This document shows, piece after piece, positions 54,625 through 57,125 of a stretch of DNA of 64,000 nucleotides. Each line of letters begins with the position of its first letter. The stretch's first letter is position 1. The translations under genes were made by a program, and so were the position numbers. Location: assembly GCA_002284855.1 (NCBI GenBank), contig CP015603.1, forward strand, positions 434,001 through 498,000. Reading direction: 5' to 3'. Under the pieces are notes generated by a model. It was not told where the DNA came from. It did no database searches and saw only the letters and a list, made by a program, of their open reading frames with translations. Origin of the DNA: Actinobacteria bacterium IMCC25003. GTDB lineage: Bacteria; Actinomycetota; Actinomycetes; Nanopelagicales; Nanopelagicaceae.

Positions 54625-54927
54625 TTAGGATGCGTGTGAAATAACTGGAATGCCGCGGCGTTCCAAGATCACTGCGCGATCATCTTCGGAGAGGCCTCCC
54701 CAAATTCCGTAAGGCTCTTGCACTGCAAGTGCGTGTGCGCGGCAAGCTTGAATGACTGGGCATGAAGCGCAGACAGCCTTCGCTGCATTCTCGCGATTAC
54801 GACGACGTGGTCCACGTTCGCCATCAGGGTGGAAGAACATCTCTGAGTCCATCGAACGGCATGATCCTTCGTACTGCCATTCCCATTGCTCAGCAATTGG
54901 TTGCGGTAGACGTGATAGTTCAGCCAT
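54625..54927 (-). CDS. whiB3: WhiB-family iron-sulfur transcription factor (WhiB3-like)
   Basis: WhiB proteins bind a 4Fe-4S cluster and the sigma factor region 4. The 100-aa protein has the four cluster Cys (C23, C53, C56, C62), the conserved FFHPDGERG segment and the GIWGG turn (74-78) followed by a basic patch. The pattern FFHPDGERG and neighbourhood with groEL and guaB resemble WhiB3 of mycobacteria. AAAGGAGAAC precedes the ATG on the minus strand. It is divergent from the cobalamin-domain regulator. Confidence 0.92.
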   Translation of the reverse strand: MAELSRLPQPIAEQWEWQYEGSCRSMDSEMFFHPDGERGPRRRNRENAAKAVCASCPVIQACRAHALAVQEPYGIWGGLSEDDRAVILERRGIPVISHAS

Positions 54928-54955
54928 GTGGTTCTCCTTTGTGCGTGTTATGGAT

Positions 54956-54984
54956 AAGGTACAACCGATTCATAAGTTGTTCAA
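54956..54984 (-). promoter_or_regulatory. Candidate whiB promoter
   Basis: On the minus strand: TTGAAC (54984-54979), a 17-nt spacer and TACCTT (54961-54956), about 29 nt before the whiB start. The -35 box lies inside the first TTGTTCAA repeat of the divergent region, so a repressor bound there would block it. Confidence 0.45.
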
Positions 54985-55011
54985 GTACGTATCGCGCCAC
55001 GCCTTGTTCAA
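54977..55011. repeat. TTGTTCAA repeats in the divergent whiB control region
   Basis: TTGTTCAA occurs at 54977-54984 and again at 55004-55011, with a related TTTTTCAAGT at 55027-55036. ACAAC and GTTGT (54961-54965 and 54976-54980) also form an inverted pair next to the first copy. Such repeated short sites fit a MerR-family operator array. Confidence 0.45.
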
Positions 55012-55032
55012 TGGGCGAAATGTCCGTTTTTC

Positions 55033-55053
55033 AAGTGGTGAGTTACCCCACTT
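55033..55053. promoter_or_regulatory. Inverted repeat upstream of the MerR-type regulator
   Basis: AAGTGG (55033-55038) and CCACTT (55048-55053) are separated by 9 nt and lie 17 nt before the regulator's ATG, where an autoregulatory operator would be expected. No clear promoter hexamers are visible for this gene. Confidence 0.4.
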
Positions 55054-55070
55054 CACGCCACGATAGCGCC

Positions 55071-55967
55071 ATGGCACAGAGCGCACAGGCACCTCAAGAG
55101 AAGCTCACAGTCGCCGCCGTAGCCCGCCGTATCGGCGTAGCACCTGCCACTCTGCGCACTTGGGATCGCCGTTATGGTCTCGGTCCTTCGGAGCATCAAG
55201 AGGGCGAACACCGTCGCTACTGCCCCAACGATTTAGCGAAGCTCACCATGATGCGCCGCCTCATTGTCGCCGGCGTTTCGCCAGCAGAGGCTGCTGCAGA
55301 GGCAAAGGCGTGCAAGACAACGGTGCCACTTACCAAGATAGTGAAAGAGTTTGAAGTTCGCGAGGATGTAGTTGATGCGCTCTATAAAGCGCTACAAGGA
55401 TTTGATCGTGATTTTGTTGAAACCACACTTGCCCATGAAATAGAGACATATGGCATCGAGAGCGCATGGGCTGATGTCATTGTTCCAACTCTCTTTTTGA
55501 TTGGCGAAGAGTGGGAGAACAATCAAAAAGGAATTGAAGTCGAACACCTCTTCTCTGAAATTCTCACACGCACCATGCATCAACGCGTTGTTGAATTGAA
55601 GAAGCCGATCAATCCCCGCCCTGTACTGATTGCAGCAGTTGGCGAAGAGCTCCACTCCATTCCGCTCTATGCATTGGCTGCAGCACTCTGCGAACGCAAT
55701 ATCCAGACCTATGTCCTGGGCGCTCGCACCCCGGTCGAAGCACTTTCTGCGATGGTGACACGATGTGCACCTCCTGCAATCTTCTTGTGGGCCCAGCTTC
55801 CAAAGAATGCAGAGCAGAAGTACTGGAATGAGTTGCCCGCAATTCGCCCAGCTCCTCGCATTGTGGTCGGGGGAGCCGGATGGGATTCCATCGAATGTGG
55901 CGATGTCGTCAGGGCCGAGGGTCTTGAGCACGCATGTGAGGAAATTGCGCAGGCTTTAGGCGCGTAA
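55071..55967 (+). CDS. MerR-type regulator with cobalamin-binding domain (CarH/LitR-like)
   Basis: The 298-aa protein has an N-terminal MerR helix-turn-helix (about 11-75: LTVAAVARRIGVAPATLRTWDRR) and a C-terminal B12-binding fold. It carries W148-x9-E158-H159, the motif that contacts adenosylcobalamin in CarH, and His195 in GEELHSIPL at the spacing of the CarH lower axial ligand, plus a VVGGAGW glycine turn. This predicts a light-sensitive B12 repressor. ATG 55071 is chosen since upstream in-frame starts run into whiB antisense. It is divergent from whiB; guaB follows. Confidence 0.85.
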   Translation: MAQSAQAPQEKLTVAAVARRIGVAPATLRTWDRRYGLGPSEHQEGEHRRYCPNDLAKLTMMRRLIVAGVSPAEAAAEAKACKTTVPLTKIVKEFEVREDVVDALYKALQGFDRDFVETTLAHEIETYGIESAWADVIVPTLFLIGEEWENNQKGIEVEHLFSEILTRTMHQRVVELKKPINPRPVLIAAVGEELHSIPLYALAAALCERNIQTYVLGARTPVEALSAMVTRCAPPAIFLWAQLPKNAEQKYWNELPAIRPAPRIVVGGAGWDSIECGDVVRAEGLEHACEEIAQALGA

Positions 55968-55979
55968 TTGAGCAGGTAG

Positions 55980-57125
<1,146 letters not shown>

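Follow-up and report, generated by a model that had tools for sequence, protein, structure and literature searches.

The locus analysed here raises two linked questions: which signal is read by a cobalamin-type MerR regulator of an actinobacterium related to common lake plankton, and which gene answers to it. The regulator is encoded at 55071–55967 (+) of the window, by which is meant the whole 64,000-nucleotide stretch of Actinobacteria bacterium IMCC25003 DNA. The initial annotation had proposed a light switch of the CarH kind in an acI-like lineage, and the lineage is supported by the relatives recovered, which include Candidatus Planktophila and Candidatus Nanopelagicaceae (order Nanopelagicales).

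The open reading frame has no internal stops and yields a product of 298 amino acids, whose assignment as a MerR-B12 regulator of the LitR/CarH type draws on Pfam and on alignments to CarH. Its MerR helix-turn-helix domain (residues 13–75, 55107–55295, +; PF13411, MerR_1, 50.7 bits against a cut-off of 21.6, E 1.9e-13) is followed by a four-helix B12-binding_2 domain (residues 101–169, 55371–55577, +; PF02607, 31.7 bits, above the cut-off of 23, E 1.8e-7) and by a weaker Rossmann B12-binding domain (residues 185–284, 55623–55922, +). The last of these matches PF02310 at E 1e-5 with 25.8 bits, under the cut-off of 32.1, although the CarH alignment runs through it to residue 273–275. Thermus CarH (TtCarH) is the best match among solved structures, covering residues 12–275 with E 4.7e-18 in a single-sequence search; it matches a 32-row profile of the regulator at E 5.1e-22, and hhalign pairs the two across 243 columns, with a probability of 99.4% and an identity of 29%. 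W148, E158, H159 and H195 of the regulator (codons at 55512–55514, 55542–55547 and 55653–55655, +) align with TtCarH W131, E141, H142 and H177, the last being the lower axial ligand, and 30 of 30 congeneric loci, a figure that includes the own locus, encode all four unchanged. The MerR domain and the residues first proposed as cobalamin contacts are thus borne out, and the four residue positions and the Trp-to-His distance of 47 are confirmed in the translation; the 46 residues quoted for Thermus CarH match the published numbering W131/H177 (PMC11796333). In our reading of the alignment, the extra residue would fall in the stretch that joins the helical bundle to the Rossmann domain, outside the pocket loop. 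In a wider alignment all four pocket residues are intact in 47 of 53 whiB-linked homologs (at least one is missing in the other 6) versus 11 of 21 unlinked ones.

The pocket departs from that of CarH at several points. The light-response signature published for these proteins is GxxW, EH, GxxH and GxxxP (PMC11796333). The regulator has GxxW, EH and GxxxP and lacks GxxH, as the Gly position is E192, with a Gly one residue earlier. At the Gly position of HxxG, most relatives carry Pro or Ala, and Gly is found there in 0 of 74 aligned homologs; CtMerR is light-responsive yet also lacks this Gly, so that its loss alone is no argument against AdoCbl. The second His of TtCarH (H132) corresponds to E149, and His is outside the five commonest residues at this position of the homolog alignment. 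Because Glu directly follows the Trp, the bis-His light state would not be able to form as it does in TtCarH. In CtMerR, the Glu lies on the adenosyl group and an Arg occupies the second-His position, according to the same source. The NCBIfam CarH equivalog NF052513 scores 102.6 bits against a cut-off of 400, and this result and the signature shortfalls place the regulator in the wide CarH/LitR family rather than in CarH itself. The original light-switch reading is supported in part, by the architecture and the pocket residues, and not by the equivalog score, the GxxH motif or the second His; light sensing itself is plausible. PMC11796333 singles out the Trp and the Glu as crucial to the binding of AdoCbl by CarH. 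The regulator is quite likely to bind AdoCbl.

The supply of this cofactor can be read from the genome, which encodes a PduO-type adenosyltransferase (TIGR00636) and the AdoCbl-dependent ribonucleotide reductase NrdJ; a search of the same genome for CobA/BtuR found none, and its two PF02310 matches are MetH and the regulator. As PduO and an AdoCbl-dependent reductase are encoded, AdoCbl should exist in the cell, and a missing cofactor was rejected as an objection on this ground. PduO and a large ribonucleotide reductase are also retained in a genus without the regulator, so that by themselves they are no evidence for light sensing.

The gene that diverges from the regulator (54625–54927, −) is a whiB3 ortholog and the proposed target. 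It matches the Pfam Whib family at 1.4e-25 and is nearest to WhiB3 among solved WhiB proteins (structure 8cyf, 3.2e-35, versus 1.1e-13 for WhiB1). WhiB3 of M. tuberculosis is the orthologue of WhiD, according to PMC4255298. The other neighbours are groES/groEL and guaB2/guaB3/guaA. The surroundings of WhiB, chaperonin and purine genes described earlier are confirmed from the open reading frames, with the identities of whiB and guaB2 checked by profile and the remaining names taken from translations and tblastn matches. The IMP dehydrogenase gene at 56010–57125 encodes 371 amino acids with a catalytic domain, and the CBS family gave no match in its Pfam scan; tblastn matches to this protein in other families break at residues 92–111, with a few hundred extra bases, which is presumably where a CBS pair would sit.

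The linkage to whiB is tight. A divergent whiB adjoins the regulator in 26 of 26 congeneric loci and in 70 of 70 loci of a second acI set (at least 600 bp upstream in each case), and guaB2 lies 3′ of it in 28 of 30 and 71 of 78 loci, respectively, the sets being overlapping. The second set consists of 80 relatives kept, a few of whose titles look mislabelled (Bifidobacterium breve, Streptomyces griseus, Streptomycetaceae). In the wider sample of the family and class, whiB adjoins the regulator in 49 of 70 loci; these 49 span 21 families, and most of them also have groEL and guaB nearby. The 70 loci are ten class relatives and sixty chosen from 150 genomes with a match, and are not a random draw. 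A whiB-linked arrangement in 21 families argues that the arrangement is old and no oddity of acI. As candidate targets, guaB and groEL were rejected, as the whiB linkage is tighter and the operator described below sits on the whiB promoter; because of that tighter linkage, they look like bystanders.

The regulator is present (E 1e-20 or better) in 28 of 31 genomes of the window's family and in 150 of 296 genomes of the class sample. Three genomes of one sister genus (G137, G166 and G236; 1.2 Mb, 99–100% complete) lack the regulator, a close whiB3 ortholog and a perfect operator site together: their best whiB3 match has 43–45% identity, versus 69–77% in 11 of 11 regulator-bearing relatives. The regulator and whiB3 are thus lost, or missing, together in this genus.

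The region between the two genes (54928–55070), which had been named at the outset as the DNA target, is strongly supported as such by footprinting of the sequence across families. It contains a near-invariant element, the predicted operator, TACAACCG-N3-CATARG-TTGTTCAAG (54960–54985). The gap matches TACAA[CT]CG-N3-C[AG]TA[AG][AG]TTGTTCA in every one of the 29 congeneric loci for which upstream DNA is available. In the second acI set, reduced from 80 to 77 loci by the exclusion of three with less than 200 bp upstream, the full element is found in 68 loci, TTGTTCA in 76 and TTGAMC-N17-TANNNT, on the whiB strand, in 74. The two counts are not independent, as 15 of the 29 congeneric loci recur among the 77. 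Shuffles of the same 77 loci give TTGTTCA in a mean of 2.8 (maximum 7) and the promoter pattern in a mean of 0.16 (maximum 1). In the window, the corresponding putative −35 box of whiB3, TTGAAC (54979–54984, −), lies within the operator, and the putative −10 box is TACCTT (54956–54961, −). The far T of this −10 box, the last of TANNNT, falls outside the pattern used to search for the element and is kept in 68 of 68 element-bearing loci. Conservation of the promoter pattern and of this T suggests that the element combines the promoter of whiB3 with a conserved spacer. A scan of the own locus for consensus promoters found nothing for either whiB3 or the regulator, and the whiB3 promoter rests on conservation.

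The scan for further boxes places them at 54977, 55004 and, weaker, 55027 of the window. The second box, TTGTTCAA (55004–55011), is 27 bp from the first, and the third is TTTTTCAA (55027–55034). A second TTGTTC is found in 34 loci of the second acI set, at an offset of 26 bp in 18 and of 27 bp in 16. Nearer to the regulator start there is an inverted repeat, AAGTGG-N9-CCACTT (55033–55053), which might conceivably be an autoregulatory site. It was rejected as a second operator, since exact copies of AGTGG-N9-CCACT are confined to 8 of the 29 congeneric loci and 12 of the 77 loci of the second set, with 0 among 38 loci from outside the family. The repeat may belong to the promoter of the regulator gene or have arisen by chance. 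The congeneric alignment also points to a possible −10 box, CACGAT (55059–55064, +), of a leaderless regulator transcript.

The box is shared well beyond acI. TTGTTCA is the commonest 7-mer of the whiB–regulator gaps, present in at least half of the loci in 14 of 21 families, while in 100 shuffles of the gaps it reaches this level in 0.27 families on average and in no more than 2, and no 7-mer does so in more than 6; the longer operator pattern given above becomes visible in many families once the gaps are aligned. Within 300 bp upstream of whiB3, TTGTTCA or TGAACAA is found in 35 of 49 loci with an adjoining regulator versus 0 of 31 scored without it (Fisher 1.8e-11, uncorrected for kinship and with the negatives mostly from three families, f18, f4 and f19). 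A looser pattern gives 41 of 49 regulator–whiB pairs, the box being missing in 8, versus 4 of 31 controls. Absence of the regulator was scored at E 1e-20, and 80 of the 126 genomes outside the regulator listing were searched; 33 control loci were examined and 31 counted (E under 1e-22). Separately, L231 and L244, which have 48% identity, are probably paralogs and lack TTGTTCA/TGAACAA, were left out. In one counted control, L258, a regulator below the threshold adjoins whiB, which makes 0 of 30 the cleaner figure, and the counted controls L284 and L285 (47–49% identity) may be paralogs. Of the 21 regulator genes without an adjoining whiB, 3 have a loose-pattern box in the 400 bp upstream of them.

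The reverse complement core of TTGTTCA, TGAACA, fits the CarH repeat core TnnACA, which in the known cases overlaps the −35 or the −10 box (PMC9304148). The spacing of the boxes varies. Same-strand pairs of the loose pattern occur in 12 of 49 whiB-linked loci, at 11 bp in four (three families), at 22 bp in three (two families) and, in the remaining five, at 9, 25, 25, 37 and 56 bp; the acI spacing of 26–27 bp does not fit an 11-bp array (11 or 22). The gaps of L196 and L197 (f26) have three TTGTTCA-type boxes: two in direct orientation, spaced by 22 bp, and a third, inverted, after another 21 bp. In L121, L213 and L216 (f9), the regulator is next to groEL, whiB does not adjoin, and a TTGTTCA box was not found in 400 bp upstream.

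Genome-wide scans point to a single target. When up to three mismatches are allowed, the 24-mer is found at one place in the own genome; the 41 genomes scanned contain four off-locus matches, in three genomes and with two or three mismatches, versus three matches of the reversed control. Of the 13 complete congeneric genomes, 12 have a single perfect 14-mer, at the regulator locus, and the remaining one has a copy with one mismatch; the three regulator-free genomes have no perfect copy. Away from the locus, 9 one-mismatch copies were counted over these 16 genomes, versus 25 for the reversed-pattern control. A large regulon was rejected, given the single 24-mer site of the own genome and the lack of a second perfect 14-mer site in the genomes scanned. 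The regulator very probably binds the conserved element.

The model that best accounts for these observations is a LitR/CarH-type repressor dedicated to the divergent whiB3 and probably released by light, to which we assign a probability of about 60%. In the dark, the AdoCbl-loaded regulator would oligomerise and bind the TGAACA-type boxes, and as these overlap the −35 box and the spacer of whiB3, RNA polymerase would be blocked. Light would break the Co–C bond of AdoCbl, so that the oligomer dissociates, the DNA is released and WhiB3, an Fe–S redox regulator, is produced; the regulator may repress its own gene too. The steps of this model differ in strength. The DNA target is the best-supported of them, a strong inference from comparison of the loci. 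That the regulator represses whiB3 rather than activating it is probable, because of the overlap of the boxes with the −35 box and spacer and because this is the known mode of LitR and CarH. Release by light, which is suggested by the residues and the family, is held with moderate confidence. The conserved unit of regulator, operator and whiB3 is, on the sequence evidence, a stronger and newer result than light sensing.

Three other explanations have to be set against this model. The regulator could be a sensor of the cobalamin level, through which AdoCbl or another corrinoid reports B12 supply to whiB3, any loss through light being incidental; MetH and NrdJ use B12, so that supply matters to the cell, and a pocket with a non-CarH GxxH loop and without the second His would suit such a role. 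The Trp and Glu described as key for AdoCbl in CarH (PMC11796333) are, however, invariant in the window's genus. We consider a level sensor unlikely.

It is also conceivable that the element is a site of WhiB3 or another factor, or simply a strong promoter, while the MerR-B12 protein acts elsewhere. The element does coincide with the putative whiB3 promoter, and WhiB proteins work at sigma-A promoters. Yet the motif occurs in 0 of the 31 whiB3 upstream regions scored without the regulator, a second perfect site in 0 of the 13 complete congeneric genomes searched, and its core fits the known CarH repeat (PMC9304148), all of which makes this explanation quite improbable. The same source describes CarA of Myxococcus as a B12-independent paralogue of CarH, and the present repressor might likewise be no longer dependent on B12 and answer to another signal or partner. 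The pocket Trp is indeed lost in some homologs, but the pocket residues are intact in 30 of 30 loci of the window's genus, and independence from B12 is very improbable here.

A CarH/LitR protein controlling a whiB gene did not come up among the titles and abstract openings listed in searches of an open-access library, from which subscription journals are largely missing, and a term search of the main text of an RNA-seq study of light in freshwater actinobacteria (PMC8591293) showed CarH, LitR, cobalamin and WhiB to be absent from it. Regulator, operator and whiB3 occur together in many families, and this looks like an unstudied input to a redox regulator, one that would extend B12 photoregulation past carotenoid genes. 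WhiB3 has been described mainly in mycobacteria and, under the name WhiD, in Streptomyces development. We know of no clear account of light sensing for gene control in such plankton bacteria, and a single-target B12 switch on WhiB3 would come down to one promoter, one protein and one predicted wavelength range.

It can be proposed, tentatively and with some doubt, that a circuit from a B12 photoreceptor to WhiB3 is ancestral in much of the Actinomycetes, and that the better-known LitR of streptomycetes, which serves carotenoid genes, arose later, when the same protein was switched from WhiB3 to an ECF sigma factor. If so, light read through AdoCbl would set the level of an Fe–S redox regulator both in plankton of sunlit waters and in soil bacteria. 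On a tree that leaves out three broken or aberrant sequences (L122, L226 and L199), whiB linkage is clustered, with 5 changes versus a shuffled mean of 17.5, two of the changes being forced; this is compatible with an ancestral whiB linkage but proves neither that nor a single origin. The backbone of this tree is unresolved and TtCarH forms a very long branch in it, and a sister-clade reading was rejected.

Known systems resemble the locus in different parts. The groEL–whiB3–guaB surroundings of WhiB3/WhiD loci are the same as here, and in genomes scored without a MerR-B12 protein, whiB3 is without the operator. LitR in general is treated in PMC6739363 and its classes in PMC9758184; the Streptomyces arrangement is litR-litS-crt, and LitR is experimentally light-responsive with B12 (PMC12705666). 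The homologs that resemble LitR of Streptomyces coelicolor (class I; litR-litS) do so by motifs and neighbours: those of families f19 and f17 that lie beside ECF sigma genes (3 of 4 f19 loci, 4 of 5 f17 loci) mostly have EHL[LF], HxL[PA] and GPGW, and none is beside whiB in the fetched loci. A crtI-family gene is present in one f17 locus, and weaker crtI-like matches in two more. Few genes were used from these GC-rich loci, and ECF sigma, crtI and CMAS-type genes were confirmed by profile. The f19 homologs L194, L198 and L227 keep the pocket Trp, while in L118, L206, L218 and L221 (f17) and L220, L223 and L224 (f4) it is replaced by Gln or another residue, with EH and the axial His kept. AdoCbl binding may differ in these Trp-less homologs, and as the f17 homologs beside ECF or crtI genes lack the Trp, the parallel with LitR is weaker for f17.

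CtMerR (PDB 8jbs), a light-responsive cobalamin protein, shares the pocket residues with the regulator and, like it, lacks the HxxG Gly (HEIA) and the second His, which is Arg in CtMerR (PMC11796333) and Glu in the regulator; it differs in keeping GxxH, which is replaced in the regulator. Thermus CarH (PDB 5c8d, 3whp) has the same order of MerR domain, helix bundle and Rossmann domain, the same W, EH, H and GxxxP residues, and an operator core, TnnACA, that overlaps the −35 box of the target promoter, as is proposed here. In Thermus and Bacillus, the CarH operator is built from 11-bp repeats, nnnnTnnACAn, that follow one another in tandem across promoter elements, whereas the acI boxes are not an 11-bp tandem. 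The regulator differs from Thermus CarH, to which it is 29% identical, in that the Gly of GxxH and the Gly of HxxG are replaced and that W148 is followed by E149, so that the second His is missing. The target proposed here is whiB3 rather than carotenoid genes.
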